Below the pieces are notes generated by a model, which was not told the DNA's origin, searched no databases, and saw only the letters and a list, made by a program, of their open reading frames with translations. The position numbers and the translations under genes were made by a program. A stretch of 64,000 bases of DNA from Microvirga terrae (lineage in GTDB: Bacteria > Pseudomonadota > Alphaproteobacteria > Rhizobiales > Beijerinckiaceae). The DNA lies in assembly GCF_013307435.2 (NCBI RefSeq), contig NZ_CP102845.1, forward strand, positions 2,613,001 through 2,677,000. Direction: 5' to 3'. Below, piece after piece: positions 14,490 through 50,624 of this stretch (position 1 is the stretch's first letter; every line of letters begins with the position of its first letter).

Positions 14490-14549
14490 CGATTTTAGAA
14501 CAAATCAAGAACCTGAGCAATCGCTCCAGCTTGGATCTCCACACCTGCC

Positions 14550-14636
14550 GTCATGGCCGGGTTGGTCCCGGTGATCCCGATCGCTCGATGCGCCATGCGT
14601 CTCGGATCGGGATCACCGGCACAGGGCCGGCACTGG
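14550..14636. repeat. composite intergenic repeat, copy 1 (rplI-dnaB)
   Basis: GTCAT, a hairpin of GGCCGGG/CCCGGTG type, then CCCGAT, a spacer, ATCGGGAT and a second hairpin (ACCGGCACAGGGCCGG). Left hairpin is a hybrid of the two stem versions and the right outer end is degraded. Lies in the 3' region of the rplI operon, before its terminator. Confidence 0.85.
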
Positions 14637-14650
14637 CGAGGGGGAGAAGC

Positions 14651-14678
14651 TTCCGGCGGTGTCTCGACCCCGCCGGAA
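14651..14678 (-). terminator. hairpin just downstream of rplI
   Basis: A 9-bp stem (TTCCGGCGG / CCGCCGGAA) 15 bases after the rplI stop, without a clear T-run. It could protect the 3' end of the message or act as a weak terminator ahead of the stronger one at 14453. Confidence 0.45.
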
Positions 14679-14692
14679 CCGACAGCGAACTC

Positions 14693-15259
14693 TCAGAGCT
14701 CCTCGTCGCCGCCGGCCTCGGCCAGAGCAGCGCCGACCTCGAGGCCGAGGTCGTCCAGGTTGGTCTCCTCGCGGGTCGTGACCTGCTCGCCGCGGGCCTG
14801 ACGCTCGGCTTCCTCGGGGCTGCGGGCGACGTTGATCGTCACCTGAACCTCGACCTCCGGATGGAGGGAGACCGGCACGTTGTGCAGGCCGATGGTCTTG
14901 ATCGGCTGGTTGAGGACGATCTGGTTGCGATCGACCGTGAAGCCGTTCTCGGTCATGATCTCGGCGAGGTCGCGGGTCGAGACCGAGCCATAGAGCACGC
15001 CCGTCTCTCCGGACTGGCGCAGGATGATGAAGCTCTGGCCGTTCAGCTTCTCCCCGACGGTCTCGGCTTCCTTGCGGCGCTCGAGGTTACGGGCCTCGAG
15101 CTGGGCGCGCTGGGCCTCGAAGTGCTTCTTGTTGGAATCCGTGGCGCGCAGGGCCTTGCCGCGCGGCAGGAGGAAATTGCGTGCATAGCCGGAGCGGACC
15201 TTCACGGTCTCACCCATCTGACCGAGCTTTGCGACGCGCTCGAGAAGGATCACTTCCAT
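14693..15259 (-). CDS. rplI: 50S ribosomal protein L9
   Basis: A 188-residue protein. The start [17 protein letters not shown] and the following [16 protein letters not shown] are the L9 signature. The C-terminal domain is followed by an acidic tail (AEAGGDEEL) typical of alphaproteobacterial L9, which explains the length above the ~150 of E. coli. ATG at 15259 with AAGGAG 5 bases upstream is clear; a longer frame through the preceding membrane-protein gene is spurious. Last gene of rpsF-rpsR-DUF2232-rplI. Confidence 0.96.
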
Positions 15260-15282
15260 GGTTGTCTCCTTTAGGTTCGTGA

Positions 15283-16245
15283 TCAGGTGGAAAGGGTTGG
15301 CGGTTGGTTCGGACGCGAGCCGAAGCGGCGACGCAGCCCGAAGACGGTGTCGGCAATGCCGAACAGGGCGAGGGCGACCATCAGGATGCCCTGGGTGACG
15401 AAGATCAGCACGTAGAGAGCCGACAGGATGAAGGAACGGCCCGACTTGCCCCGCGTGCGGTCGTGGATCGCCGCGAGGCCCTGGAGGGCGAAGGCCATGA
15501 GGAACGCGCCCGAGAGGGCCATTCCCAGGGCGCCGATGAAGCCCTCGAAGCTGGCCACCACGAGGGAGCCGATCAGGATCAGCCCGGCTGAGCGCGGCAT
15601 CACGAGTTCCGGGACCGACGGCCAGGGGCGCGGCAGACGCTTCGAGGCCTGCACGATCCGGGCGGCCGCCCAGAGATAGAGCGCCAGCACGGTGGCGAAG
15701 CCCTGGGCCGACAGAAAGGGCGTCAGGCGGGCAAAGATGCCGACGAGTTCGTCGCGGGTTTCCGTGTCGAGCGCGCCCGGTCCCGAGGTGCTGAACTGCG
15801 AGTTCACGAAGGCCTCGGCCACAGCACGGGCGTTGTGGTCGAAGGCGCCGAAATCGCCCCCCGTCGAGATCACGCCCGCCGCCATGATGGTGAGCGCGGC
15901 CGTCGCGGCGATCCAGGCGAGAAGCCGGCCGACCGGATACCATTCCATGGTCCCGTCCGCTCCGGGACGCCCGAGAAGGGAAAGATAGGACAGCCACCAG
16001 GCGGGAAGGGCGGTGATGAGGGCGAAGCCCAATCCACTGAGCGGGGACAGGATCAGAGCAATCGCGAGGCCGCCCACGACGGCCGCGACGAGGCCGGACC
16101 GGTGGTCCCAGCCGAGCGACACGATCAGAACGGGGATGGGAGCCAGGAGATACAGCACGGCAGCCAGCGGCGTCGCCTTGACGACCACTGCGGTCAGAAG
16201 GGCCGATACGAGCCCCGCGCCTATGCCTGTCGCAACAAAATTCAT
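15283..16245 (-). CDS. DUF2232 family membrane protein
   Basis: A 320-residue polytopic inner-membrane protein with about eight hydrophobic segments spread over residues 5-300 (first: [22 protein letters not shown] is interrupted by TM borders). Its position between rpsR and rplI is the hallmark of DUF2232 proteins in alphaproteobacteria. No catalytic motif is visible and the function is unknown; the constant location beside ribosomal protein genes suggests a link to growth or cell division, which is only inference. It ends 23 bases before rplI. Confidence 0.85.
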
Positions 16246-16338
16246 CGTCTCGCTGTCCCGCTGCTCATGGCAGGGTTAGGGGTCTGGCCCCAACTGACCC
16301 GGCGGATTCGCACCGCTGGGCGATCTTGGATGAGGGGA

Positions 16339-16361
16339 GCGGGCCGCACGAGGCGGCCCGC
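16339..16361. other. GC hairpin between rpsR and the DUF2232 gene
   Basis: A perfect 9-bp stem (GCGGGCCGC / GCGGCCCGC, 5-base loop) about 10 bases beyond the rpsR stop. There is no T-run, so it more likely marks a processing or attenuation point that separates strong ribosomal-protein expression from the membrane-protein gene downstream. Confidence 0.55.
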
Positions 16362-16372
16362 CGAAGTCTTGC

Positions 16373-16633
16373 TTAGCGGATCACGTAGGGCAGGAGGCCC
16401 AGGAAGCGGGCGCGCTTGATCGCCTGGGCGAGCTCACGCTGCTTCTTGGCCGACACGGCCGTGATGCGGGACGGAACGATCTTGCCGCGCTCGGAGATGT
16501 AGCGGGACAGGAGCTTCGTGTCCTTGTAGTCGATCTTCGGCGCGTTCGGGCCCGAGAACGGGCAGGTCTTGCGACGGCGGAAGAAGGGACGACGGCCGCC
16601 GCCAGCGGCGCCACCGGTTGCACCAAATGCCAT
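16373..16633 (-). CDS. rpsR: 30S ribosomal protein S18
   Basis: An 86-residue basic protein. [12 protein letters not shown] at the start, [19 protein letters not shown] and the end [14 protein letters not shown] are all S18 hallmarks. The N-terminus has a Gly/Ala-rich leader ([15 protein letters not shown]) common in alphaproteobacteria. S18 forms a heterodimer with S6 on the 30S platform; rpsF lies 3 bases upstream. Confidence 0.97.
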
Positions 16634-16636
16634 GAC

Positions 16637-17044
16637 TTACGCCTCCTCGCCTTCGCTGCTGCCGCCTTCGAAGCCGCCGCCGTCGCGCTCACGGCGCTCG
16701 CGGTCCTTGCGCTCGTCGCGGTCGCGCTTCTGCATCATCACGGACGGCTCGGTCTCGAGCTCTTCCACCTTGATGGTCATGAAACGAAGGATGTCTTCGT
16801 TGATGCGCATCTGACGCTCCATCTCGGCCACGGCCGGAGCCGGAGCGTTGAGGTTGAACATCGTGAAATGCGCCTTGCGGTTCTTCTTGATGCGGTAGGC
16901 GAGGGACTTCACGCCCCACATCTCGGTCTTGTCGACGCTGCCGCCGTTCTGCTCGATGACGCCCTTGTACTGGTCGACCATTGCTTCGACCTGCTGCGGG
17001 GTGACATCCTGGCGAGCCATGAAGATATGCTCGTAGAGAGGCAT
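16637..17044 (-). CDS. rpsF: 30S ribosomal protein S6
   Basis: A 135-residue S6. The start [14 protein letters not shown], the middle [18 protein letters not shown] and [18 protein letters not shown] match S6. The C-terminal ~35 residues form a charged tail (Arg/Asp then Gly/Glu-rich), usual in this order and longer than in E. coli. First gene of the rpsF-rpsR-DUF2232-rplI operon; a good promoter is visible about 215 bases upstream, leaving a long untranslated leader. Confidence 0.97.
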
Positions 17045-17257
17045 AGTGGGCCTTTCTCAGGTTTGAGGTTCAAGCCTCGGCACTGTTTTCAAGAGTGTCT
17101 TGGCCGTTTCGCGCGTCCGATCGGCGCCAAGCCCTTCGAGCCTGCAAGGCCCGAGCGGTTGTCGAAGGCGGAGACACGGGACGACGGAGCCGAAACTCCT
17201 GCATGGCCAAGCCATACCGTCCGTTCAGCCCCCGGCCGGAGCGAACGCGAAGCGGGG

Positions 17258-17286
17258 GCTATAGTCGATTTGGACCAGGAAGGCAA
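17258..17286 (-). promoter_or_regulatory. promoter of the rpsF operon
   Basis: On the minus strand TTGCCT (17281-17286), a 17-base spacer and TATAGC (17258-17263). Four of six bases match in each hexamer and the spacing is ideal. Predicted transcript start near 17251, giving a leader of about 205 bases before rpsF. Confidence 0.55.
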
Positions 17287-17312
17287 GGGATGTCCGGCCA
17301 CGGGCCGACAAC

Positions 17313-17399
17313 GTCATCAGCCCTCGTGCCGGTGATCCCGGCAACCCCGAAACGCCGCGCTCTTTCGACCGGGATAGCCGGCACAGGGCCGGCCATGAC
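17313..17399. repeat. composite intergenic repeat, copy 2 (rpsF-pdxJ)
   Basis: GTCATCAGCC...GCCGGTGATCCCGG, spacer, ACCGGGAT and AGCCGGCACAGGGCCGGCC then ATGAC. 87 bp. It lies between two divergent genes, upstream of the rpsF promoter. Confidence 0.88.
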
Positions 17400-17506
17400 A
17401 ACGAGGGGGCCCTCCCAAGCCGCCGCTCGGACGATTTGCCGTTGATAGCGCATCCGCGGACCGATGGAACCCTGGTCAACGGATCCCCTTAGGCTAAAAC
17501 ACCCTT

Positions 17507-18265
17507 ATGAAAGCTCCTCCTCTCCGCCTCGGCGTCAACATCGACCACGTCGCCACCGTCCGGAATGCCCGCGGCGGCCATCACCCGGATCCGGTCCGGG
17601 CCGCGCATCTCGCCGTCCTGGCCGGTGCGGACGGCATCACGGCCCATCTGCGCGAGGACCGGCGCCATATCCGCGACCAGGACATGGAACGGCTCAAGCG
17701 CCAGCTCTTCGTGCCGCTGAATTTCGAGATGGCCGCCACTTCGGAGATGGTCGCGATCGCGACCCGCATTCATCCCCACGCGGCCTGTCTCGTGCCGGAG
17801 AAGCGGGAGGAACGCACCACCGAAGGGGGCCTCGACATCATCGGCGCCCATACCCATCTGCGTCCGGTGATTCAGGAACTGAAAGCCGAGGGCATTCGGG
17901 TGTCCCTCTTCGTCGAGCCGGAGATCGCCGTCATGGATGCCGCCTGCGACCTGCAGGCGCCGGTGGTCGAACTCCATACGGGAACCTATTGCGAGGCCGT
18001 CGCCGAGGGCGACCAGGCCCGGATCGCCCATGAGCTGGAGCGGCTGCAGCGCGCCGCCGAGCACGGCGCGAGGATCGGCCTCGAGATCCATGCCGGGCAC
18101 GGCCTCGCCCTCGACTCGGTCCGACCCGTTGCGGCAATTCCTCAGATCGTGGAGCTCAACATCGGCCATTCCCTCATCGGTGAGGCCATCTTCGTCGGCC
18201 TCGACGAGGCGGTCAGGGCCATGAGGGCGGCGATGGACGAGGGCCGGGCACAGGTGCCGGCGTGA
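17507..18265 (+). CDS. pdxJ: pyridoxine 5'-phosphate synthase
   Basis: A 252-residue TIM-barrel enzyme that condenses 1-deoxy-D-xylulose 5-phosphate with 3-amino-1-hydroxyacetone 1-phosphate to give pyridoxine 5'-phosphate, the ring-closing step of the DXP-dependent vitamin B6 pathway. Motifs: [17 protein letters not shown] at the N-terminus, [13 protein letters not shown], and [16 protein letters not shown]... near the end (family signature GHGL). It overlaps acpS by four bases (GTGA). First gene of pdxJ-acpS-lepB-rnc-era; no clear Shine-Dalgarno precedes the ATG. Confidence 0.97.
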
Positions 18266-18660
18266 TTCTCGGCATCGGGTCCGATTTGTGCGACATCCGG
18301 CGCATCGAGAAATCGCTCGAGCGCTTCGGCGACCGCTTCACCCATCGCATCTACACCGAGGGGGAGCGGGCGAGGAGCGACCGCCGGGCGGCCCGGGCGC
18401 CTTCCTATGCCCGCCGCTTCGCCGCCAAGGAGGCCTGCGCCAAGGCCCTGGGAACGGGCCTGAGCCACGGGGTCTTCTGGCGCGACATGGAGGTGGTCAA
18501 CCTTCCCACCGGACGGCCCACCATGCGACTGACGGGGGGCGCCCTGGAGCGTCTCGAGGCCATGACGCCGGCCGGCCACAGGGCGGTGGTGCATGTCTCC
18601 CTGACCGACGATCCGCCCATGGCGCAAGCGTTCGTGATCATCGAGGCGCTTCCGGCCTGA
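18262..18660 (+). CDS. acpS: holo-[acyl-carrier-protein] synthase
   Basis: A 132-residue phosphopantetheinyl transferase that converts apo-ACP to holo-ACP using coenzyme A. The metal-binding Asp lies in [13 protein letters not shown] and the second acidic site in [16 protein letters not shown], both diagnostic. GTG start at 18262 overlaps the pdxJ stop (GTGA). Its place between pdxJ and lepB is conserved in alphaproteobacteria. Confidence 0.96.
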
Positions 18661-18758
18661 GCGGGCCGCGTTGCGGCAGGACGCCGCTTGGGTTAGAGCA
18701 TGGCCGCCGCGGAACGGGCTCCGATCCGCGGCACCGACTGCAGTAAGGATTGATTCTT

Positions 18759-18803
18759 TCGAGAGTGGTTTGCCTCTGGGGCTGAGGTGCAAACCCCTCT
18801 CGA
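18759..18803 (+). other. long hairpin in the acpS-lepB gap, upstream of lepB-rnc-era
   Basis: Arms 18759-18773 and 18789-18803 are complementary over 15 positions with a single T/C mismatch; the 15-base loop can add three inner pairs. No T-run follows, and the structure ends 60 bases before the lepB start. A long irregular RNA duplex in this place fits an RNase III processing site in the mRNA that carries rnc, by analogy with the rnc leader of E. coli. That role is inferred. Confidence 0.65.
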
Positions 18804-18863
18804 CCTGCCACACGGACGAGGACGGCTCCGGCCGCCGGAGTCCAAGAGCATAGGTCGACAGAC

Positions 18864-19640
18864 GTGAGCGAAAAAAGCAGCAAGTACGTGGGTAGCAGCG
18901 CGAAGAACGAAGAAGGCGGCATCTGGGAGACCATCAAGGTCATCGTCCAGGCCCTTCTGATCGCGGTCGTCGTGCGCACCGTGCTCTTCCAGCCCTTCAA
19001 CATTCCGTCGGGATCCCTCATCCCGACCCTTCTCATCGGCGACTACCTGTTCGTCTCCAAGTATTCCTACGGCTACTCGAAGCACTCGATCCCGTTCAGC
19101 CCGGGCCTCTTCTCCGGCCGCATCTTCGGGTCCGAGCCGAAGCGGGGCGAGATCGCCGTGTTCAAGCTGCCCAAGGACAACTCGACCGACTACATCAAGC
19201 GCGTGATCGGCCTGCCGGGGGACAAGATCCAGGTGATCGGCGGCGTGCTGCACATCAACGGCCAGCCGGTCCAGCGCGAGCGGGTGGAGGATTACAAGAC
19301 AACCGACCTCTACGGCCGCACGATCTCGGTGCCGCAGTACCGGGAGACGCTACCCGGCGGCGTCGCGCATTTCGTCATCGAACGGGACGGCGACCGCGGG
19401 TACTGGGACAACACCAACGTCTACACGGTGCAGCCCGGCCATTTCTTCATGATGGGCGACAACCGGGACAACTCGACGGATTCCCGGGACGAGGCCAGCG
19501 TCGGGCAGGTGCCGTTCGAGAATCTGGTGGGTCGCGCGGAGATCATCTTCTTCTCGATCGACGAGAGCGCCTCCCTGTGGCGTCCGTGGGAATGGCCGCA
19601 GAAGATCCGCTGGAACCGTCTCTTCGAGCGGATCCGGTAA
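18864..19640 (+). CDS. lepB: signal peptidase I
   Basis: A 258-residue membrane protease that removes Sec and Tat signal peptides. One N-terminal membrane anchor (residues about 24-42), then catalytic Ser51 in PSGSLIPTL and Lys112 in DYIKRVIGLPGD; GDNRDNSTDSR is the conserved late box. The residue after the catalytic Ser is Leu instead of the usual Met. Start is GTG at 18864 with a weak ribosome site. The rnc gene starts 3 bases after the stop, so lepB and rnc are co-transcribed. Confidence 0.95.
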   Translation: MSEKSSKYVGSSAKNEEGGIWETIKVIVQALLIAVVVRTVLFQPFNIPSGSLIPTLLIGDYLFVSKYSYGYSKHSIPFSPGLFSGRIFGSEPKRGEIAVFKLPKDNSTDYIKRVIGLPGDKIQVIGGVLHINGQPVQRERVEDYKTTDLYGRTISVPQYRETLPGGVAHFVIERDGDRGYWDNTNVYTVQPGHFFMMGDNRDNSTDSRDEASVGQVPFENLVGRAEIIFFSIDESASLWRPWEWPQKIRWNRLFERIR

Positions 19641-19643
19641 GCC

Positions 19644-20354
19644 GTGAAACGTCGCAAGCCGAACCTCGACGAGCTTCTGAAGAGGCTCGACTACCGCTTT
19701 GAAAAACCGGAACTCCTCGACGAGGCGCTGACCCATGTCAGCGCCCCGCAGGCCGCCGGCCAGAGCTATCAGAGGCTGGAATTCCTCGGGGATCGCGTCC
19801 TCGGCCTCTCCATCGCCGAGCTGCTCTACAGTACCTTTCCCGGCGCCCCCGAGGGCGAACTCTCCCGGCGCCTCGCGGAGCTGGTGCGGCGCGAAAGCTG
19901 CGCCGAGGTGGCGATCGCCTGGGACGTGGGGCCCCATCTCAAGCTCGGCGCCGGCGAGGCGCATTCGGGAGAGCGCCGCAACCAGACGATCCTGGCGGAC
20001 GTCTGCGAGGCGATCATCGGGGCCGTCTTCCTCGACGGCGGCTACGAGGCCGCCAGGAGCCTTGTTGAGCGCTCGTTCCGGACCCTGCTCGCGGCGCCCC
20101 GGCGCCCCCTCCGCGACCCGAAGAGTGCTCTGCAGGAATGGGCACAGGGCAGAGGCCTGCCACCGCCGACCTATACTATCGCCGAGCAGTCTGGCCCGGA
20201 CCACGCGCCGAAGTTCCGCATCATGGTGACGGTGAAGGGAACCGAGGGCGAATTCGGCCAAGGCGCTTCGAAGCGCGTCGCGGAACAGGCGGCGGCGCGA
20301 AGCCTTCTCTTGAGAGAGGGCGTCTGGACGGAGGAAGAGCATGGAACAGCCTGA
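19644..20354 (+). CDS. rnc: ribonuclease III
   Basis: A 236-residue double-strand-specific RNase for rRNA and mRNA processing. The catalytic signature RLEFLGDRVLGLSIAELL is near residue 50, and the second acidic cluster is in LADVCEAIIGAVFLDGG. The C-terminal dsRNA-binding domain starts at about 165 (DPKSALQEWAQGRGLPPPTY). GTG start; the 3' end overlaps era by 14 bases, so translation of the two is coupled. Confidence 0.97.
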   Translation: MKRRKPNLDELLKRLDYRFEKPELLDEALTHVSAPQAAGQSYQRLEFLGDRVLGLSIAELLYSTFPGAPEGELSRRLAELVRRESCAEVAIAWDVGPHLKLGAGEAHSGERRNQTILADVCEAIIGAVFLDGGYEAARSLVERSFRTLLAAPRRPLRDPKSALQEWAQGRGLPPPTYTIAEQSGPDHAPKFRIMVTVKGTEGEFGQGASKRVAEQAAARSLLLREGVWTEEEHGTA

Positions 20355-21255
20355 GCAAACCACCACGAAGGCCGGTTTCGTCGCTCTCATCGGGGCGCCC
20401 AACGCGGGCAAGTCGACCCTCCTGAACTCGCTCGTCGGGTCGAAGGTCTCCATCGTGTCGCGCAAGGTGCAGACGACCCGCGCCCTGGTGCGCGGCATCG
20501 CCATCGAGGGCGACGCGCAGATCGTGTTCGTGGACACGCCCGGCATCTTCAAGCCGAAGCGCCGCCTCGACCGCGCCATGGTCACGTCGGCCTGGGGCGG
20601 CGCGGGCGACGCGGACGTGATCGCCCTTCTGCTCGACGTGCGCAAAGGCATCGACGAGGAGGCCGAGGCCATCCTCGACAAGCTCCCTGAGCTGAAGCGC
20701 CCGAAGGTGCTGATCCTCAACAAGATCGACCTGATCGAACGCTCGAAGCTTCTCGAGCTCGCCTCCAGGCTGAACGAAAAGGTGCCCTTCGCTCATACCT
20801 TCATGATCTCGGCCCTGAAGGGTGACGGCATCCAGACCCTGAAACGGCAGCTCGCCGAGATGATGCCGGAGGGGCCCTGGCTCTATCCGGAAGACCAGAT
20901 CTCCGATGCGCCGCTGCGGATGCTTGCCGCCGAGATCACCCGGGAGAAGATCTACGAGCGGCTTCACGAGGAACTGCCCTACCAGTCCACGGTCGAGACC
21001 GACCAGTGGCAAATGCGCCCCGACGGCTCGGTGCGCATCGAGCAGACCGTGTTCGTGGAGCGCGACAGCCAGCGCAAGATCGTGCTCGGCAAGGGCGGCC
21101 AGACCATCAAGGCCATCGGCCAGGCGGCCCGCAAGGAGATCGCCGAGATCGCCGAGAGCCCCGTACACCTCTTCATCTTCGTGAAGGTGCGCGAGAACTG
21201 GAGCGACGATCCCGAGCGCTACCGGGAGATGGGCCTGGAGTTCCCGCGGGGTTAA
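20341..21255 (+). CDS. era: GTPase Era
   Basis: A 304-residue essential GTPase that binds 16S rRNA and assists 30S assembly. G1 is [12 protein letters not shown] (residues about 18-29), G3 is DTPGIF, G4 is NKID, and the C-terminal KH domain carries [20 protein letters not shown]. Preceded by rnc, usually followed by recO; here the next gene downstream is a convergent chemoreceptor whose stop codon overlaps (TTAA at 21252-21255), and recO is 6 kb further on. Confidence 0.97.
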
Positions 21256-23012: not shown

Positions 23013-23337
23013 GCCTTATGTTCTTGACCAAACGTCACGCTAAAAGGTTAAAGAAGGCAGAATACTTGAGGGATCTTCTCCTAAGGTCTTAGACGACCAG
23101 TATTGCGTTCGCCGCTTTACGATCGACCTGTGCGGAGAGGGATAAATTCTGGCATTCCGCAAGACGTCCCACAATCCTTTGAAACATGTTAGTTTTCATG
23201 GATTTCGCACATCGTCTCAACGCAACCAGATCAGCCGTAAGGCTTTATCCTCAAAGGATAGTAGGAAGGCGCGTTGCATCCGGTGAAACCTTCCAGAAGT
23301 AGCCCACCAGTGTCGACGTCGACGTTCCGGGGAGGCC
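23013..23337. other. divergent MCP-cyclase intergenic region
   Basis: 325 bases, AT-richer than the surroundings, between divergent genes; promoters for both should lie here but I could not place hexamers with confidence. A 6-bp inverted repeat (TATCCT-CAA-AGGATA, 23246-23260) lies about 80 bases before the cyclase start. No gene or longer repeat is seen. Confidence 0.55.
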
Positions 23338-25113: not shown

Positions 25114-25126
25114 CGATCCCAAAATG

Positions 25127-25154
25127 AAACCGGGAGGATCGTGTCCTCCCGGTT
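25127..25154 (-). terminator. terminator between the convergent cyclase and OmpA-like genes
   Basis: Perfect 11-bp stem (AACCGGGAGGA / TCCTCCCGGTT, 5-base loop). On the minus strand it is followed by TTCATTTTGG, so it should end OmpA-gene transcripts; on the plus strand the T content after it is lower, but the stem may work in both directions. Confidence 0.8.
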
Positions 25155-25161
25155 CGGTCTC

Positions 25162-27084: not shown

Positions 27085-27278
27085 GATCCTCAATTCACCG
27101 TTGGGCGCAGTTAAGTCATCGACAATGACAGGGTGCCGGGTTGGTTCCGAAAAAAGCGGGATTCCGCTTGTGAAACAGAATTTTAGAAGTTCGCCTATAG
27201 GGTTGAAGACCATGGATGAATGCCGTCTGAATGCCTACATCAGGAGGACGGAGTCCGGCCGAACGGACCCTTTCCTCC

Positions 27279-27313
27279 GTCATGGCCGGGCTTGTCCCGG
27301 CCATCCTGATCGG
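27279..27313. repeat. half copy of the composite intergenic repeat (OmpA-recO)
   Basis: Only the left hairpin is present: GTCATGGCCGGG, CTTGT, CCCGGCCATCCTGATCGGG. The second hairpin and the closing ATGAC are missing. It lies between divergent genes. Confidence 0.8.
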
Positions 27314-27371
27314 GTGAGGCAGGGGACTGGCCGGCTTCCTGGAAAGACACGCGACGAAGGCAGCCGAACCG

Positions 27372-28103: not shown

Positions 28104-28169
28104 GGTTTGTTTCTGTTATGTTCCCTTTTCAGATGATAAGAAGCGATTCGCAATTGAGGATTTCGAGGA

Positions 28170-30416: not shown

Positions 30417-30434
30417 GCGGCAATCCGTTTCGAC

Positions 30435-30522
30435 GTCATGGCCGGGCCCCTCCCGTCTATCTCGATCCGGACGACGCGTCGCCTCGGAAGATCGGGATCA
30501 CCGGCACAGGGCCGGTGATGAC
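30435..30522. repeat. composite intergenic repeat, copy 3 (parC-wrbA)
   Basis: 88 bp between convergent genes. The left hairpin has decayed (GCCGGGCCCCTCCCGTC), the right one is intact (GATCACCGGCACAGGGCCGGTGATGAC has both arms). It is positioned to act as a 3'-end stem-loop for both transcripts. Confidence 0.85.
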
Positions 30523-30573
30523 GTGGAGGGTATGATCCTCGTCGACCCTGACCTGTCAGGACGAGGCCGGTGA

Positions 30574-31269: not shown

Positions 31270-31470
31270 GGCGCACCTTCCGTTTCGTAAGGATTATGCA
31301 ACGAACAAGGCGCGGGAGGGGTTGTTCCGGATTTATCCGCCGCCCCCTCCGTCCGGAGGGCTCGCGCGGCCGGATATGCCTTTAAGGAAGGATGCCGCTC
31401 TGCGGTGCGATGTCGGCTCACGCGCGTCCCCGGGGCGCGATGGCCAAACGCCTTTCCGGAAGGAGATTCC

Positions 31471-31752: not shown

Positions 31753-31821
31753 CGATCAGACGGGAAAGCCGCTGCCGCGCGGCGACCGCCTGCCGAACCA
31801 CCGACAGGCTGGTCGCAGGTG

Positions 31822-32568: not shown

Positions 32569-32712
32569 TCGGGAAAGCCTTGTGGAGAAACCTTGAGCGC
32601 TTCATCAACGCCCAAGGATAACATTGGTGTCCGGGCCGTCCAGGAAAAGAGGGCGAATGTCACAGGCGTTTGATGTCGCGCGGCTCCTGCGCGCTTCATG
32701 TTTCCCTTCGAT

Positions 32713-32801
32713 GTCATCAACGGCCTTGTGCCGGTGATCCCGATCATGTCGAGCGCCGTACCCCGGACGATCGGGATGGCCGGGACAAGCCCGGCCATGA
32801 C
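32713..32801. repeat. composite intergenic repeat, copy 4 (RDD-bpt)
   Basis: 89 bp, nearly ideal: GTCATCAACGGCCTTGTGCC with GGTGATCCCGATC, spacer, GATCGGGATGGCCGGG, ACAAG, CCCGGCCATGAC. Here the left hairpin is the CACCGG/CCGGTG version and the right the GGCCGGG/CCCGGCC version, reversed compared with copies at 36006 and 44925. Confidence 0.92.
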
Positions 32802-32832
32802 GTGGCAGGTTCGATGCGCTTCCGTCCCTGTC

Positions 32833-33315: not shown

Positions 33316-33325
33316 CGTTCTCTCC

Positions 33326-34567: not shown

Positions 34568-34597
34568 GTTGTCCTCCGAAAATCTCATTATACGCCC

Positions 34598-36010
34598 TTA
34601 GACGGGCCTTGGTGTCGGATCCCTGAATCCCAGCAGGCCACCGGGCCGAAAGACCAGGAACACGACCAGGGCCACGTAGAGGGCCATGTCGCGCGCCTCG
34701 ATGGGGAGATACGCCGACCAGAGGGTCTCGAACAAGCCCACGGCGAATCCGCCGAGCATCGCGCCGGGGATCGACCCGATGCCGCCGATGATCGCCGCGA
34801 TCAGGGCCTTGAGGCCGTACTGGAAGCCGCCGGCGAAGCCCAGGCCGCCGTATTGCGCGACGATCAGCATGCCGGACAGGCCCGCCATGGCGCCGGCGAG
34901 CGCCAGCGTCTGGACGAGAAGCCGTGGGCCATCGACGCCCATGAGCGCCGCCGCCTTGGGGTCGTCCGCATAGGCCCGCCAGGACCGGCCGAACCGCGTC
35001 GCCTGCACGAGCCAGAGGAGGGCGAGAGCCGCCACGAGGCCGATTCCGGCCGTGATCACGGTGATCGGCGTCAGGCTGACGATGAACTCGCCCGCGCGCA
35101 CGAGGGGCCAGGCCTGGGACCAGATCGGCGGCAGCCAGACCGTCACCGGGCTCTGCACGAGGCGCAGGTATTCCATCAGGAAGAGCGAAAATCCGACCGT
35201 GGCGATCAGGCTCGGCTGCGGGCTGGCACTGACGACGCGTCCGATGGTGAAGTAGCCCCCGACCGCGCTGTGGATGGCGCCGGCGAAGAGAGCGGCGGCG
35301 AGCCCCGCTGCGAGGCCGAGCACCGGGGAGCTGGCGCCGAAGCCGAGCACCACCGAGGCGCCCGCGATGGTCGCGGCCGAACCGACCGCCGCCAGCTCGC
35401 CGAAGGCCAGGTTGATCCGCCCGCTCAGCCCGAACACCAGGGCGAAGGCCACCGACAGCAGGGCGTAGATGGCCGTTCGCGGCAGGCTCACCAGGATCTG
35501 CTGCAGCCAATAGGCGGCACCCTCGGGGATCTCGATCACGTTGGCGCCGAGCGGGCTGCCCGGATCGCCGGCCGAGCCCTCCGGGGTGTCGAGATAATAG
35601 CGCTTGAGCAGGTAGAGGCTGGCGCCGGACAAGGGGCCTTCCTCGGTGGCGAGGCCCTCCAGCTCCGCCTTCTTGGCCGACAGCCCTTCGGCCACGAACT
35701 GGCAGATCGCGAAGCGCTGGAGAATCGGCCGGTCGGGAAACTGCGCCAGATACTCGACCCGCAGGCTCCGCGGAGCGGGCCCCGCCTGGATCCGCTCGAC
35801 GGTGATCGCCGCGCCGGGATTGAGCGCCGGCAGGACCGAGCGGCAGACCCGCGCCTGCTCGGCGTCGGTGGAGATTCCGCAGGCAGAGAGAAGGCAGAGG
35901 CCGAGCAGGAGGGAGGCGAGGCGGGCCAGATTCAGGAAGGGTGTGAAGAGCGGGAGGATCCTGCGGCTCTCATCCGGAACGTGCTCCCGGCAGTCGTGTT
36001 CTCCCGTCAT
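34598..36010 (-). CDS. LivH-type branched-chain amino acid ABC permease with an N-terminal extension
   Basis: About 470 residues. The C-terminal ~300 residues are a LivH/BPD_transp_2 permease: YALLSVAFALVFGLSGRINLAFGELA is its first part, then GGFQYGLKALIAAIIGGIGS and the end FRPGGLLGFRDP. Before it lies an extra ~110-residue segment that begins with a hydrophobic stretch and lipobox-like LLSACG, followed by a soluble region (AITVERIQAGPAPRSLRVEY). No LivM, ATPase or binding-protein gene is adjacent, so it is an orphan subunit. Start uncertain: the ATG at 36010 is part of the outer end of a composite repeat, and downstream only CTG codons precede the hydrophobic stretch. Sits upstream of ilvA. 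Confidence 0.8.
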   Translation of the reverse strand: MTGEHDCREHVPDESRRILPLFTPFLNLARLASLLLGLCLLSACGISTDAEQARVCRSVLPALNPGAAITVERIQAGPAPRSLRVEYLAQFPDRPILQRFAICQFVAEGLSAKKAELEGLATEEGPLSGASLYLLKRYYLDTPEGSAGDPGSPLGANVIEIPEGAAYWLQQILVSLPRTAIYALLSVAFALVFGLSGRINLAFGELAAVGSAATIAGASVVLGFGASSPVLGLAAGLAAALFAGAIHSAVGGYFTIGRVVSASPQPSLIATVGFSLFLMEYLRLVQSPVTVWLPPIWSQAWPLVRAGEFIVSLTPITVITAGIGLVAALALLWLVQATRFGRSWRAYADDPKAAALMGVDGPRLLVQTLALAGAMAGLSGMLIVAQYGGLGFAGGFQYGLKALIAAIIGGIGSIPGAMLGGFAVGLFETLWSAYLPIEARDMALYVALVVFLVFRPGGLLGFRDPTPRPV

Positions 36011-36093
36011 GGCCGGGCTTGTCCCGGCCATCCCGATTGTTTGAAACCCTGCGCTCTTCGCATCGAGATCACCGGCACAAGGCCGGTGATGAC
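36006..36093. repeat. composite intergenic repeat, copy 5 (LivH-hemB)
   Basis: 88 bp, nearly ideal: GTCATGGCCGGG, CTTGT, CCCGGCCATCCCGAT, spacer, ATCGAGATCACCGG, CACAAGG, CCGGTGATGAC. Its left outer end, read on the minus strand, is the ATGAC that serves as the only upstream ATG of the permease gene. Confidence 0.92.
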
Positions 36094-36198
36094 ATGGCAG
36101 GGATCGTTGCCGGACCTCATCGGTCACGCTCACGTCCTGAGCCAGTCTCTGAGACGCCTTGAGCCCGACACGGAACGCCCCCCGGATGTGACGGGCGA

Positions 36199-37632
<1,434 letters not shown>

Positions 37633-38685: not shown

Positions 38686-39146
38686 TGCCCCGCACCGGAA
38701 CCCAGCCGCCGTCGACCCCGGCCACCCGGGAGTACCTCTCCGACCGGATCGAGGAGCGGCCGGTCGCCAGCTCCATCATGCGCTGGGGCTTCGTGCTGAC
38801 CTGGTTCATGCGGGTCCTGGCGATCCTATGGATCATGAAGGGCCTGAGCGCCTGGGCGGTGATCCTCGGCATCTGGACCCCGGTCGGGCAGTTCGAGGCC
38901 CGGTCGACCGGCTACCAGGCCACCATGATCTACTTCGCGCTGATCGACCTAGTCGCGGCGGTGGGCCTGTGGATGGCCAGCACCTGGGGCGGCATCATGT
39001 GGCTCCTCGCCGTGATGAGCCACCTGATTCTCGCCGCCTTCTTCCCGGGGATCGTCTCGGGCGGGGTCGTCACCGTGGCGTTCTTCCTGACCCTGATGGC
39101 GGTCTATCTTGCGGTCTCGTGGCTCGCCGCGCGGGAAAACCACTGA
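38685..39146 (+). CDS. small four-helix membrane protein, possibly DUF6163
   Basis: A 153-residue protein with four membrane segments (about residues 35-55, 75-95, 100-120 and 125-147) and a polar N-terminal tail of ~30 residues. The fold and location fit the DUF6163 family known from Hyphomicrobiales, though I cannot check this. No catalytic motif. The start overlaps the preceding hydrolase stop (TGATG), so translation is coupled. An internal membrane function is all that can be said. Confidence 0.75.
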   Translation: MPRTGTQPPSTPATREYLSDRIEERPVASSIMRWGFVLTWFMRVLAILWIMKGLSAWAVILGIWTPVGQFEARSTGYQATMIYFALIDLVAAVGLWMASTWGGIMWLLAVMSHLILAAFFPGIVSGGVVTVAFFLTLMAVYLAVSWLAARENH

Positions 39147-39405
39147 CCGGGCGGTCCGGCCAAGCTCCTCACGCAGAAGTGTATCCCCAAGAGCACAGTT
39201 CAAAGTTACATGTGGCCGGAAGGCGGTTGCGGAGCGCCAGGAACCGGGAGCGGGTCGGTTTGCCATAAAACGGCCCCGATGTTCCTCGTTTTCGATACCG
39301 TTCTTTAATCCTATCCCGGCACTTATCGCTGGGAAGGGGGCTGTTGCGGGCATTCGCCCGCCGCTCCCGCCGTCGGAAACATCTAACCGGGAAGAGCCTG
39401 CGCTC

Positions 39406-40677
39406 ATGTTCTCTCGCCGTACCCTCCTGACCGGATCGCTCGCCCTGATCTTCACGCCGGCTACCGGGGCCCTGGCCCAGCAATTCGCCCAGAGCCAGGC
39501 CGAGTGGTCGCAGAACTACGAGGCCGTGTCGCGCACCCGCGTGCAGCGCACCTCGACCCCCATGCTGTCCGCCGACGCGCTCGCCGCCACCGAGCAGATG
39601 ATCGAGTACTACCGCAACATCGCGGCCCGCGGCGGCTGGCAGCCCGTCCAGGGCGTCCAGGGCCTGCGGGTCGGCTCGAAGAGCCCGGCCGTGGTGGCCC
39701 TGCGCCAGCGCCTCATCATCACCGGCGACCTCGACCAGGCGGCCGGCGAATCGCCGATCTTCGATTCCTACGTCGAGTCCGCCGTGCGCCGCTTCCAGGC
39801 CCGCCACGGCATCAGCTCCACGGGCACCATCACGGCCCCGACGGTCGCCGCCATGAACGTGCCGGCCGACGTGCGCATCCGCCAGCTCGAGATCAACGTG
39901 GCCCGCCTGCGCACCCTCGTGGGCTCCGGGCTTCCCAACCGCTATGCGGTGGCCAACATCCCGGCCGCCCTGGTGGAGACCGTGGAGGGCGGCGTCGTCC
40001 ACACCCGCCACGCCGCCGGCGTCGGCAAGATCGATCGGCAGTCGCCGCTCCTCAACTCCAAGGTGGTCGAGGTCAACTTCAACCCGTTCTGGACGGCCCC
40101 CGCCTCGGTGGTGAAGAAGGACCTCATCCCCAAGATGCAGAAGGAGCCGAACTACCTGGCCGAGAACCGGATCCGCATCTTCAATTCGGCCGGCCAGGAG
40201 GTCCAGTCCAGCCAGATCAACTGGTTCTCGGACGAGGCGACCCGCTACCGCTTCCGCCAGGATCCGGGCGGCGACCTGAACTCCATGGGGTTCGTGCGCA
40301 TCAACATCCCGAACCAGCACGGCGTCTACATGCACGACACGCCCTCCAAGGGCATCTTCGGCGACGATTTCCGCTTCGTGTCCTCGGGCTGCATCCGCAT
40401 CCAGAACGTGCGCGACTACATCGAGTGGCTCCTGAAGGACACCCCGGGCTGGAGCCGCGAGCAGATCGACGCCACCTTCAAGTCCGGCGAGCGCATCGAC
40501 GCACGCCTGGCGCAGCCGGTGCCGATCCACTGGATCTACATGACCGCCTGGGCGACCCCGGACGGCCTCGTCCAGTTCCGCGACGACATCTACAACAAGG
40601 ACGGCCTCGGCAACGCGATCCCGGTCGCAAGCCGCACCCCGACCGAGCCGGACCAGGAGATGTTCCTGCAGAACTGA
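39406..40677 (+). CDS. L,D-transpeptidase with twin-arginine signal and peptidoglycan-binding domain
   Basis: A 423-residue exported enzyme that forms 3-3 peptidoglycan cross-links or attaches envelope proteins to peptidoglycan. The N-terminus MFSRRTLLTGSLALIF has a Tat-like twin arginine, with cleavage after ALA at about 24. A PG_binding_1-type domain covers about residues 85-155 (SPAVVALRQRLIITGDLD). The YkuD catalytic domain has His in YMHDTPSKGIFG and the nucleophile Cys in RFVSSGCIRI; the overall layout is that of YcbB/LdtD-like enzymes. The long upstream extension in frame is rejected because it lacks the signal. A strong terminator follows. Confidence 0.92.
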   Translation: MFSRRTLLTGSLALIFTPATGALAQQFAQSQAEWSQNYEAVSRTRVQRTSTPMLSADALAATEQMIEYYRNIAARGGWQPVQGVQGLRVGSKSPAVVALRQRLIITGDLDQAAGESPIFDSYVESAVRRFQARHGISSTGTITAPTVAAMNVPADVRIRQLEINVARLRTLVGSGLPNRYAVANIPAALVETVEGGVVHTRHAAGVGKIDRQSPLLNSKVVEVNFNPFWTAPASVVKKDLIPKMQKEPNYLAENRIRIFNSAGQEVQSSQINWFSDEATRYRFRQDPGGDLNSMGFVRINIPNQHGVYMHDTPSKGIFGDDFRFVSSGCIRIQNVRDYIEWLLKDTPGWSREQIDATFKSGERIDARLAQPVPIHWIYMTAWATPDGLVQFRDDIYNKDGLGNAIPVASRTPTEPDQEMFLQN

Positions 40678-40727
40678 GGCAGGGCAGGCGACTTCCCACG
40701 CCTCCAGCACAGCCTCATGACGATCCC

Positions 40728-40757
40728 ATCGCCGGCCTTCGGGCCGGCGATTTCGTT
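40728..40757 (+). terminator. intrinsic terminator of the L,D-transpeptidase gene
   Basis: Perfect 10-bp stem ATCGCCGGCC / GGCCGGCGAT closed by a TTCG tetraloop and followed by TTCGTTT. Fifty bases after the stop codon. Confidence 0.85.
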
Positions 40758-40808
40758 TGCGGGGCACATCGGTCGAGCGACTTTCGGAGAGACCCTGACA
40801 CCCGCCGC

Positions 40809-40896
40809 GTCATCACCGGGCTTGTCCCGGTGATCTCGATTGTTTGGAATGCCACGCCTTTCCGATCGGGATGGCCGGCCCAGAGCCGGCCATGAC
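40809..40896. repeat. composite intergenic repeat, copy 7 (ldt-glyA)
   Basis: 88 bp: GTCATCACCGGG, CTTGT, CCCGGTGATCTCGAT, spacer, ATCGGGATGGCCGGC, CCAGA, GCCGGCCATGAC. Both stems are intact but carry different compensated versions. Confidence 0.92.
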
Positions 40897-41104
40897 GGGG
40901 TAGGGCGGTGCGAACCAGGCGCTGCCTCTCCGAAGCGCCGCGCTTCGCCCGCCCGAGATGCCCGGCGCCCCGTTGCATGCTCGGCGCCGGACGGGCATGT
41001 CTCCCGTGCGGGTTGGCGCGGTCAAGGCAGCCATGGTAAAGGCCTGGGCCATAGCGGATCGAGCGGCCCGTTCCAGCCGGGCCCCCAGGAAGACGAGGTG
41101 ACCC

Positions 41105-42409
41105 ATGAGCGCGAGTGAAGCGGCACGCAACCATCTGTCCAACAGCTTTTTCTCGGCGAGCCTCGCTGACAGCGATCCCGAGATCGCCCGCGCCATCGGG
41201 CTCGAGCTCGGCCGCCAGCGCGACGAGATCGAGCTGATCGCCTCCGAGAACATCGTGTCCCGGGCCGTCCTGGAGGCTCAAGGATCCGTCATGACCAACA
41301 AGTACGCGGAAGGCTATCCGGGCCGCCGCTACTATGGCGGCTGCCAGTTCGTCGACATGGCCGAGGAACTCGCCATCGAGCGCGCCAAGCGCCTGTTCGA
41401 GTGCCGCTTCGCCAACGTGCAGGCCAATTCCGGCTCCCAGGCCAACCAGGCCGTGTTCATGGCCCTGATGAAGCCCGGCGACACCTTCATGGGCCTCGAC
41501 CTCGCCTGCGGCGGCCACCTGACCCACGGCTCGCCCGTGAACATGTCGGGCAAGTGGTTCAACGTGGTGAGCTACAAGGTGCGCGAGAGCGACCAGATCA
41601 TCGACATGGACGAGGTCGCCGAGCTCGCACGGACCCACAAGCCGAAGGTGATCGTGGCCGGCGGCTCTGCCTATTCCCGGTTCTGGGACTTCGCCCGCTT
41701 CCGGGAGATCGCCGACGAGGTCGGGGCCTTCTTCATGGTCGACATCGCGCATTTCGCCGGCCTCGTGGCGGGCGGCGCGCATCCGTCGCCCTTCCCCCAC
41801 GCCCACGTGGTCACCACCACGACCCACAAGACCCTGCGCGGCCCGCGCGGCGGCATGATCCTGACCAACGACGAGGACATCGCCAAGAAGGTCAATTCGG
41901 CGATCTTCCCCGGTCTCCAGGGCGGCCCGCTCATGCACGTGATCGCGGCGAAAGCCGTGGCGTTCGGCGAGGCCCTGCGGCCCGAGTTCAAGCTCTATGC
42001 CCGCTCCGTGGTCGACAACGCCAAGGTGCTGGCCGACACGATGCTCGCGGGCGGCTACGCCATCGTGGCGGGCGGCACGGACAACCACCTGATGCTGGTC
42101 GACCTGCGCCCCAAGACGCTCACGGGCAAGGCGGCCGAAGCGGCGCTCGGCCGCGCCCACATCACCTGCAACAAGAACGGCGTGCCCTTCGACCCCGAGA
42201 AGCCGATGGTCACCTCGGGCATCCGCCTGGGGACGCCGGCCGCCACCTCGCGCGGCTTCGGCGTGGCCGAGTTCAGGAAGGTGGGCGAGCTGATCGTCGA
42301 GACCCTGGACGGGCTCGCCGCCCATGGGGACGAGGCCAACGCGGCGGTCGAGGAATCGGTCAAGCACCGCGTCCACGAGCTGACCCGCCGGTTCCCGATC
42401 TACGCGTGA
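41105..42409 (+). CDS. glyA: serine hydroxymethyltransferase
   Basis: A 434-residue PLP enzyme: serine + tetrahydrofolate to glycine + 5,10-methylene-THF, central to one-carbon metabolism. Lys242 in [16 protein letters not shown] binds [19 protein letters not shown] and IASENI are further signatures. Full length and complete. First gene of the conserved glyA-nrdR-ribD-ribE-ribH-nusB-thiL series, but a composite repeat and 176 bases separate it from nrdR. Confidence 0.97.
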
Positions 42410-42447
42410 TCGGGCCATCGGAGCGCGGCCGGATGCTTCCTTCCACG

Positions 42448-42534
42448 GCATCACCGAGCTTGTTCCGGTGATGCCGGTGCGAAGAGCGCTGCGCTTCACC
42501 ATATCGGGATGGCCGGGACGGGCCCGGCCATGAC
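42448..42534. repeat. composite intergenic repeat, copy 8 (glyA-nrdR)
   Basis: 87 bp: GCATCACCGAG, CTTGT, TCCGGTGATGCCGG, spacer, ATATCGGGATGGCCGGG, ACGGG, CCCGGCCATGAC. The left half is partly degraded, the right half is intact. Lies between two co-oriented genes. Confidence 0.9.
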
Positions 42535-42585
42535 GAAGTGGATTGTCCAGAAGATCCCTGACTTCGAATTTCGGATAGAAGGCTG

Positions 42586-43089
42586 ATGCGCTGCCCCTAT
42601 TGCGGGAGCCTGGACACCCAGGTGAAGGATTCCCGCCCCACGGACGATTCCTCGTCCATCCGCCGTCGCCGCATCTGCCCGGATTGCGGCGGCCGCTTCA
42701 CGACCTTCGAGCGCGTGCAGCTGCGCGAGCTGACGGTGCTGAAGCGCTCAGGGAGGCGGGTGCCGTTCGACCGGGACAAGCTCCAGCAATCCGTCGAGGT
42801 GGCGCTGCGCAAGCGGCCCGTCGATCCGGAGCGGGTCGAGCGGATGATCAACGGCATCGTGCGCCAGCTCGAGAGCATGAGCGACGGCGAGGTGCCGAGC
42901 GAGACCGTGGGCGAGCTCGTCATGGAGGGCCTGAAGGGCCTCGACGACGTGGCCTATGTGCGCTTCGCCTCCGTGTACAAGAATTTTCGCGAGGCCAAGG
43001 ATTTCGAGGAGATCCTCGGCAAGCTGGCGGAAGGCGAGGACGACCTGCCGCCTCCGCCCAAGAAGAAGCGTGCGCCGAGCGAGCCATGA
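42586..43089 (+). CDS. nrdR: transcriptional repressor NrdR
   Basis: A 167-residue ATP/dATP-sensing repressor of ribonucleotide reductase genes. The zinc ribbon uses Cys3, Cys6, Cys31 and Cys34 ([17 protein letters not shown]). The ATP-cone follows ([16 protein letters not shown]). The C-terminal ~20 residues are acidic then Pro/Lys-rich. The stop overlaps the ribD start (ATGA), so nrdR and ribD are coupled. Confidence 0.97.
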
Positions 43090-44234
43090 CCCCCGCCGGG
43101 GCCGAGCGGCCGTCCCCTGACCGGATTCTGCGCGACGAGCACTTCATGCGCCTGGCGATCGCCCTGGGCGGGCGCCACCTCGGGCTGACCTGGCCGAACC
43201 CGTCGGTAGGCGCCGTGCTGGTCGACGAAAGCGGCGATTCTCCCATGATCCTGGCTCAGGGCGTCACCCAGGCCGGCGGCCGGCCCCATGCGGAGCGCAT
43301 CGCCCTCGAAGCGGCCGGCGAGCGGGCCCGCGGCGCCACCCTCTACGTGACCCTGGAGCCCTGCGCGGCCCGCAGCAGCCACAGCCACGGCCCCTCCTGC
43401 AGCGACCTCATCGTGGCGGCGGGCATCGGCCGGCTGGTGGTGAGCGTGCCGGATCCGAGCCCCTTCGCGGCCGGGCAGGGTCCGGAGCGCTTCGGCCGCG
43501 CCGGGATTCCCCTGTCGACCGGCTGTCTCGCGCCCGAGGGCGCGCGGCTCCATGGCGGGCACATCACCCGCGTGACCAGGGGCCGCCCGGCCGTCACGGT
43601 GAAGCTCGCCCGCAGCACCGAGGGCTTTGCCGGCGCGCGCCGCGGCCCGCGGCTGATGCTCACCGGCGAGGCGGCCAACGGCCGGGTGCACCTGATGCGC
43701 GCTCACGCGGACGCCATCATGGTCGGGGTCGGGACGGTTCTGGCCGACGATCCGCTGCTGAATGTGCGCCTGCCGGGCCTGGAGGGCCGCTCGCCGGTGC
43801 GAATCGTGGTCGATTCCCGCCTGCGCACGCCGCCGACCGCCCGCCTCGTGGCCGGCGCCGGGATGATTCCGACCTGGATCGTCACCACCGTCGACGCGCC
43901 GGTGGAGCCGGAGCGGGCGCTGGCAGCGCGCGGCGTCGAGATCCTGCGCGTCTCGTCCGACGCGAACGGCCGCGTCCACCTGCCCGAGGCCCTGCAGCTC
44001 CTCGGCACGCGGGGCCTGACGGGCGTGTTCTGCGAGGGCGGACCGGACCTGGCGGATGCGCTGGCCAGGTCCGACCTCGTCGACGAGCTGGTCCTGATCA
44101 CCGGCCGCTCGGCACGGGGGCAGGGCGACGTGCCGGCCCTCGGCCCGGCCCTTCAGGACCGGATGGATTTCTTGAACCCCTGGGCCGAGGAGCAGATCGG
44201 CCCCGACCTTTTCATGTTCTGGGAGAGACCCTGA
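43086..44234 (+). CDS. ribD: bifunctional riboflavin biosynthesis deaminase/reductase
   Basis: A 382-residue enzyme of riboflavin synthesis: deamination of the pyrimidine then NADPH reduction of the ribosyl side chain. The deaminase domain (1-150) has [14 protein letters not shown] and a zinc loop starting [14 protein letters not shown], then PSC; the loop between the two cysteines is 11 residues against the usual 8. The reductase domain (about 165-380) has [16 protein letters not shown] and [14 protein letters not shown]. It begins inside the nrdR stop and ends inside the ribE start, so the whole nrdR-ribD-ribE stretch is translationally coupled. Confidence 0.94.
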
Positions 44235-44869
44235 TGTTCACGGGTATCGTCACCGATGTCGGTGAGATCGCAACCGCCGAGGGATCCCAAGGAACCCTGA
44301 AGCGCCTGCGGATCCATGCGTCCTACGACCCCGCCACGATCGCGCTCGGCGCTTCGATCGCGTGCGGCGGGCCGTGCCTGACCGTCGTGGCTTTCGGCCC
44401 GCGGGAGGGCGGCTGCTGGTTCGACGTGGATGCCGCGGCCGAAACCCTGGAGCGCACCACCGTGGGGGCCTGGGAAGCCGGCACCCGGGTCAACCTGGAG
44501 CGTTCCCTGAAGATCGGCGACGAGCTCGGCGGCCATATCGTGACAGGGCACGTGGACGGCATCGCCACCATCGTGGCCAAGGAGGCGATCACCGCCGGCG
44601 ACGACCCGTGGGGCCCGACGGCGCGCTTCACCATCAAGGCGCCCCATGGGCTCGCCCCGTTCATCGCCGAGAAGGGCTCCGTCTGCCTCGACGGCACGTC
44701 GCTCACCGTGAACTCCGTCAGCGACGACCTGTTCTCCGTGTTGATCATTCCGCACACGCTGGCGGTCACCACCTGGGGCGACCGGCAGGTCGGCGACAGG
44801 CTCAACCTCGAGGTCGATCTCATGGCCCGCTACGCGGCCCGGCTTGCGGATGCGCGCCGGGCGGAGTAG
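44234..44869 (+). CDS. ribE: riboflavin synthase alpha chain
   Basis: A 211-residue protein with two tandem lumazine-binding domains; it dismutates two 6,7-dimethyl-8-ribityllumazine into riboflavin. [12 protein letters not shown] starts the first domain and HIVTGHVDGIATI the second; CLDGTSLTVNSV is a conserved later box. ATG overlaps the ribD stop (TGATG). No FMN riboswitch is visible upstream. A composite repeat separates it from ribH. Confidence 0.96.
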   Translation: MFTGIVTDVGEIATAEGSQGTLKRLRIHASYDPATIALGASIACGGPCLTVVAFGPREGGCWFDVDAAAETLERTTVGAWEAGTRVNLERSLKIGDELGGHIVTGHVDGIATIVAKEAITAGDDPWGPTARFTIKAPHGLAPFIAEKGSVCLDGTSLTVNSVSDDLFSVLIIPHTLAVTTWGDRQVGDRLNLEVDLMARYAARLADARRAE

Positions 44870-44924
44870 GGACGTTCAACGTTTCCCTCTTGAGTGAAGG
44901 GCGCCGGGCGCCATCGCTTCCCAC

Positions 44925-45013
44925 GTCATGGCCGGGCTTGTCCCGGCCATCCCGATCGCGTGGAGCGCGACGCCGTTCTTCATCGGGATCACCGGCACAA
45001 GGCCGGTGATGAC
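44925..45013. repeat. composite intergenic repeat, copy 9 (ribE-ribH)
   Basis: 89 bp, ideal copy: GTCATGGCCGGG, CTTGT, CCCGGCCATCCCGATC, spacer, ATCGGGATCACCGG, CACAAGG, CCGGTGATGAC. It sits inside the rib gene series, 60 bases before the ribH start. Confidence 0.94.
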
Positions 45014-50606: not shown

Positions 50607-50624
50607 AGCGCGCCCTCAAAGAAA

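Follow-up and report, generated by a model that had tools for sequence, protein, structure and literature searches.

The 64,000-nt window analysed here (Microvirga terrae contig NZ_CP102845.1, positions 2,613,001 to 2,677,000) carries nine copies of a ~90-bp composite inverted repeat that recurs many times in the searched parts of a 6.13 Mb genome. These units are probably heterodimers of CGTC-tagged repetitive extragenic palindromic (REP) sequences that are copied whole and found downstream of genes, with their two unlike hairpins inherited and perhaps reinforced by palindrome loss. In a typical unit, CGTC is followed by a first hairpin, CCCGAT, the spacer, ATCGGG, a second hairpin and GACG; the hairpins are of two types, A (GG..CC) and B (CA..TG). 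The search for further copies proposed in the preliminary description of this DNA was rewarded, as 1.664 Mb of the genome yielded 113 paired units, along with 63 halves standing alone, head-to-head dimers being the only one of the possible pairing types counted. A pooled half-unit profile gave 134 sites at a score of at least 16 in 864 kb, vs none in one Markov-1 random copy. Among the 113 units, 110 were typed as A/B, two as A with a decayed B, and one (window position 14549) as chimeric; none was A-A or B-B. Under strict typing, with at least three of the four outer letters matching, A-B and B-A were equally frequent (55 each), and the overall order count was 57 AB to 55 BA. A structural scanner, which returned 39 units where the profile gave 57, also found no like-hairpin unit among those 39; it was silent on 1.1 Mb of Markov-1 sequence and gave some odd hits in real sequence (e.g. 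L079 2566, L214 6431 and L228 7683). The longest perfect run between the two halves was at most 8 bases in 99 of the 113 units, vs 46 % with random partners. Density was uneven, with 38, 33 and 23 units in three 400 kb stretches, 11 in 340 kb, eight in the window and none in 60 kb of a second contig, the stretches of the first contig having been selected with knowledge of BLAST hit positions and so not being random samples. The unit-free 60 kb (G000:C2 1-60000) also has a low called coding fraction, 0.517.

The anatomy of the unit is highly regular. The CGTC tag lies outside each hairpin, with per-letter conservation of 82-98 % in the left tag and 91-98 % in the right one (57 units); from the CGTC and GACG tags outward conservation falls off, staying weak over the next ~11 bases, and pairing of the flanks beyond the tag showed no clear excess over column composition. 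Each stem has 9 bp, of which the first is AT in 57/57 A hairpins and 50/57 B hairpins, and the second TA in 55/57 and 54/57, respectively. The loop has five bases and reads CTTGT in 121 of 226 cases. Loop changes had been described as matched between the halves of a unit, but such matching proved to be near chance, with 41/113 units identical vs 37.3 expected, a value reached in 937/5000 shuffles. The tail is CCC(GAT) in this genome, where it pairs across the spacer; in other genomes many units have CCA. The constant unit length noted at the outset holds within this genome, where the span from GTCAT to ATGAC is 88 bp (28 units) or 89 bp (27 units) in 55/57 units and the spacer, whose core is partly palindromic, measures 24 (53 units), 25 (49), 23 (7), 22 (2), 13 (1) or 1 (1) bases, i.e. 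24-25 in 102/113; it does not extend across the order, where spacers range from 6 to 51 bases, excluding two doubtful matches (63 and 85).

This design fits that of CGTC-tagged REPs, as defined in the text of Di Nocera et al. 2013 (PMC3733652) by a CGTC tag, a stem of 8-9 bp that opens with AT pairs, a 4-5 base loop and a short unpaired tail that is mostly CCA. Because tag, stem, loop and head-to-head pairing agree, the Microvirga units are assigned to that group, nearest CGTC-3 by its written description, the figure consensus not being part of the comparison. The resemblance covers the outside CGTC tags, the AT first pairs, the 9-bp stem, the 5-base loop, the predominance of heterodimers and the intergenic location near 3' ends. 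As to transposases, a search confined to the Y1 family found none in this genome. According to the same text, heterodimers predominate in CGTC-2 and CGTC-3 without obvious explanation, and no transposase is associated with CGTC repeats; Microvirga was not found in its main text. Unlike the CGTC-tagged REPs as described there, the set of 113 units has no like-hairpin member, a spacer of almost fixed length and a partly palindromic core. Br-REP1 with its flanking palindromes in Bradyrhizobium japonicum, as far as described in PMC5082802, is similar in forming three successive stem-loops and in lying within overlapping 3' untranslated regions, but the sequence of its central stem-loop is not that of the Microvirga spacer, the comparison being by description and not by alignment. 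The earlier classification as an element of the REP or bacterial interspersed mosaic element (BIME) type was thus supported in kind, in that the units fit CGTC-tagged REP dimers; they are BIMEs in the Escherichia coli sense by analogy only. In E. coli, BIMEs combine different hairpin types in opposite orientation, and the Microvirga units share that opposite arrangement of unlike hairpins while differing in tag and stems. The Rhizobium-specific intergenic mosaic elements (RIMEs), intergenic sequences of ~100 bp with two large palindromes, are likened to the units by general description, not by sequence. No paper was found in a literature text search with the hairpin core sequence.

That units are copied as wholes is indicated by near-identical copies lying far apart. 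Units 4078382 and 1605919 are 87/90 identical and units 4259504 and 1465282 are 86/91 identical; in both pairs the copies have opposite genomic orientations, hairpins and spacer are concordant, and the flanks share 18-21 of 60 bases, vs ~18 for random pairs. Two distant, inverted, near-identical pairs with unrelated flanks therefore argue for whole-unit copying, and the entire ~90-bp unit would be copied in either orientation. Each stem version does occur on the left or the right side of units, as had been reported, but the supposed 'hairpin interchange' is for the most part one A-spacer-B unit seen in both orientations, although an older rearrangement may also have occurred. Among spacer pairs scoring at least 14, 75 follow the hairpin order and 37 are flipped, a count to be read with the partly palindromic nature of the spacer core in mind; the best flipped pair falls within the top eleven. 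In the first set of units, 25-base spacers were coupled to hairpin order (11/5000 permutations) and 24-base spacers were not (3105/5000); one spacer subfamily was coupled (6/5000) and a larger one was not (1179/5000), and the two subfamilies were concordant with each other (3/5000). Hairpin order and spacer orientation are thus not linked in a simple way, and the older history of the units may include rare exchange of modules or more than one founder.

The units are also distinctive in their position. With genes called by a simple coding-score caller, which left 20 % of the sequence intergenic, 112 of the 113 units were not contained in a called gene. The remaining one (window 44924-45014) lies at the doubtful start of a lumazine synthase gene, in which the family match begins at residue 67, past the unit; an ATG within the GTCATGG of this unit is in frame with lumazine synthase, and gene callers may set the start inside the repeat. 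The median distance from unit to gene end was 38 bp for 3' ends vs 129.5 bp for 5' ends, and 97 of 142 adjoining 3' ends lay within 60 bp. Same-direction gaps held 64 units (with the 3' end nearer in 53), convergent gaps 39 and divergent gaps nine; against expectations by bases, from a background that includes the unit-holding gaps, divergent gaps were depleted (9 vs 27.2, p 1.3e-5) and convergent gaps enriched (39 vs 21.7, p 1e-4). Units are thus found just downstream of stop codons, and insertion there and survival there are both possible. In transcripts a unit is predicted to adopt either a cloverleaf or a single long imperfect hairpin, and because it can fold, it may shape or protect the 3' ends of mRNAs. 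Predicted folds of four window units comprised three long imperfect hairpins and one cloverleaf (z -4.2 to -5.3). In an Rfam search at gathering thresholds, the units were unmatched, the sole window match being a tRNA.

Selection on structure had been proposed for this family and was to be judged by covariation, which is strong across the order, in units picked by a structural model, and near chance inside the genome itself. In 19 diverse units, most of which were picked by a structural model that biases toward kept pairing, 97.7 % of cells were paired, 17 of 28 pairs had changes on both sides vs 10.0 in shuffles, and 89 cells were changed on both sides vs 25.3. Among 36 oriented units of the genome itself, only 3 of 28 pairs had changed on both sides vs 1.6 shuffled, a result reached in 88/500 shuffles. 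Predicted RNA folding of the typed consensus gave -60.5 kcal/mol for A-B, -88.1 for A-A and -83.7 for B-B. Two like hairpins would give a near-perfect ~90-bp palindrome that is prone to loss, and such loss could reinforce a heterotypy probably passed on from founder units through whole-unit copying.

Several observations pull against this account of inherited heterotypy, whole-unit copying and palindrome loss. One near-identical pair (4259031/1605919) has 33 of 60 left-flank bases in common, so its flanks are not unrelated, and the closest pair overall (1432302/1440139) belongs to a larger duplication, its flanks being the same. Spacer-arm order, with two arm types, is independent of A/B order (10,17;9,18; p 1.0; 54 units). 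A consistent target-site duplication, the criterion for a miniature inverted-repeat transposable element (MITE), was absent from 57 units, the largest excess over 112 offset-length tests being three four-letter matches at offset 15 vs 0.48 expected, and no clean empty site was found when 55 RibD loci were compared with part of the window, the flanks being too diverged; for these two reasons, insertion itself was not observed. The tail is CCC(GAT), whereas most CGTC repeats in the published description end in CCA. A damaged M. sesbaniae copy with a 15-base gap scores B-B, and in another genus (genomes G118 and G146) four of 20 units have like hairpins vs 6.6 under random pairing, so heterotypy is not required everywhere. 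As to a role in RNA, units were oriented 37:27 to transcription, and the ratio of G-U to A-C was 68:51 on the sense strand in same-direction gaps and 29:31 in convergent ones, which backs such a role weakly. Lastly, SbcD (TIGR00619) was above its curated cut-off in none of 25 Microvirga genomes (G000-G024) and none of eight in a separate search, vs four of 16 other genomes; this absence removes the best-known palindrome-cutting nuclease. A nuclease related to SbcD may yet exist, because some genomes have weaker matches of up to ~62 bits that cover the first ~92 positions, with partial matches near 60 bits in a few of the Microvirga genomes. The companion search for SbcC (0/8 over the cut-off) is uninformative, as its control passes in only one of 14 genomes. 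Wobble was also tried by itself as a sign of an RNA role; it gave 40:25 in the first 34 same-direction units and 8:13 in convergent ones, and was set aside as not decisive.

The most serious alternative, with somewhat less than an even chance of being correct, is that heterotypy is purely a founder effect, units with unlike hairpins having been amplified whole with no selection against like hairpins. That near-identical copies move as wholes agrees with it, as does the near-random frequency of like hairpins in G118 and G146. Classes of the inner stem pairs, too, are anti-correlated (16,49;21,12; p 3e-4), and this may reflect founder history because the reversed-inner-pair class is one coherent spacer subfamily; as a proof of selection, the anti-correlation was weakened for the same reason. 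The corresponding classes in 37 other Microvirga units were 27, 5, 2 and 1, plus two odd ones. The family is widespread, with matches to model R1 in 32 of 41 genomes, including the genome studied here, and to model R2 in 193 of 297 genomes from the order, spread over 86 of 118 genera, where per-genome counts of 105 (R1) or 14 (R2) stand for at least that many. Protein similarity was used to fetch 56 RibD loci, and the 33 paired units in them comprised 31 A/B, one B-B and one with an unclear side. By the structural scanner, like-hairpin units numbered 1/29 and 0/24 in two locus sets and 4/30 in another; per genome, they numbered 3/11 in G118, 1/9 in G146, 0/13 in G058, 0/9 in G221, 0/4 in G236 and 0/1 in G043, samples that partly overlap in units with the set of 30. 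Against a pure founder effect, units of other genera are mostly heterotypic with different stem pairs, and G058 and G221 together have 0/22 like-hairpin units vs 7.8 expected at random (1/22 vs 8.7 when the outer two pairs alone are used). Each genus may nevertheless have had its own founder, and the units from other genera were drawn from the best model matches or their surroundings rather than sampled at random. Spacer length was separately considered as a cause of heterotypy, an idea prompted by the spacer of 50 in the first like-hairpin unit met (L094); it was rejected upon finding eight like-hairpin hits in other-genome loci with spacers of 22-26, among which L170 and L191 are one unit.

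Inheritance reinforced by palindrome loss is also preferred over a mobilising enzyme, as yet unknown, that needs two different hairpins as left and right ends. The left and right ends of IS200/IS605 elements do differ, and both the strict one-of-each rule in the 113 units and the drop in conservation at the tags are what such an enzyme would lead one to expect, but the like-hairpin units in related genera, along with the failure to find a parent element among three pairs of solo halves that face each other at a distance of 90-5000 bp, make it unlikely. One of those pairs encloses no called gene, and the others enclose two and four. Slightly less likely again is the broader proposal that an undescribed copier, independent of REP-associated tyrosine transposases (RAYTs), has CGTC-REP units as its non-autonomous cargo and requires, or strongly favours, two different hairpins as ends; if true, heterotypy would be a signature of the mechanism rather than a relic. 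It is quite improbable that heterotypy keeps the units from being cut as long hairpins by SbcCD, the suggestion made in PMC3733652; the short perfect runs of the Microvirga units would accord with the minimum SbcCD stem of between 8 and 16 bp given there, but Microvirga has no SbcD over the cut-off. The activity that copies the units is unlikely to be a Y1/RAYT transposase encoded in this genome, since the RAYT gene that the preliminary description had proposed to look for was sought as a Y1_Tnp match and no such match was found. A classical RAYT-driven REP/BIME system, despite its similar architecture of paired inverted hairpins in high intergenic copy number and despite Y1_Tnp matches in some relatives (11/41 genomes; of the 14 Microvirga genomes with at least 90 model matches, five carry one and nine do not), is hardly credible given a CGTC rather than a GTAG tag, the lack of Y1_Tnp in the genome itself, a Microvirga genome (G007) that has Y1_Tnp yet no model match, and the absence of a CGTC half from six examined Y1 loci of 1.7-3.4 kb each.

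Within the window, the nine ~90-bp units first described were all present with the plan ascribed to them, and a half copy that had been overlooked, comprising only the A hairpin, was added on the plus strand at 27278..27311. The pairing of an A with a B hairpin, which had also gone unremarked, holds in eight of the nine, with decayed letters allowed in those at 17312, 30434 and 37423. On the plus strand, the exception at 14549..14638 is decayed, with 7/9 and 6/9 pairs in its hairpins and A/B-chimeric arms in both. Also on the plus strand and of order A-B are 30434..30523, in which hairpin 1 is damaged (7/9 pairs); 36005..36094, with both hairpins at 9/9 and an extended hairpin as its predicted RNA fold (z -4.2); 37423..37512, with GATC instead of CGTC as its left tag and 8/9 pairs in hairpin 2; and 44924..45014, the query, in which every stem is fully paired. 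The minus-strand units, all B-A, are 17312..17400, where a deletion leaves hairpin 1 (B) with 2/9 pairs and which the half-unit profile scored only as a half; 32712..32802 (hairpin 1, 8/9); 40808..40897, with both hairpins at 9/9 and a predicted cloverleaf (z -4.7); and 42446..42535 (hairpin 1, 7/9). The claim that base pairs are kept did not survive this inspection, as four of the nine units have a damaged hairpin and, counting Watson-Crick pairs in gapless register, just three have both hairpins at 9/9. The nearest loci are those of Microvirga, the RibD of the window being 91 % identical to that of M. sesbaniae. In the latter species (L106), a three-unit array absent from the window lies downstream of a pyrophosphatase gene (17430-17900), and two units stand at 9150-9400, against a single one (42446) at that place in the window. 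Downstream of the pyrophosphatase gene, at window ~50624-50650 and likewise in M. sesbaniae, there is a hairpin that looks like an A half. In 12 of the 56 fetched RibD loci (L106, L107, L113, L114, L116, L117, L120, L124, L125, L130, L136 and L139), a unit or half unit recurs at ~7.1-7.9 kb, a place that would correspond to the gap before the serine hydroxymethyltransferase gene.

The excess of heterodimers among CGTC repeats was already known and had been reported without explanation in the text of PMC3733652, which left open both the reason why REP pairs favour unlike hairpins and the agent that moves CGTC repeats; a non-exhaustive literature search found no later work on the unlike-hairpin rule. 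What is new is the strictness of the rule in this genome (0/113), the evidence that whole units are copied in both orientations, a genus without a recognisable SbcD, and a contrast genus. The lack of SbcD over the cut-off in Microvirga and of a Y1 transposase in this genome argues against one proposed reason for heterotypy and one proposed mover of the repeats, and the existence, within the same order, of a genus with like-hairpin units offers a contrast in which heterotypy can be tested.

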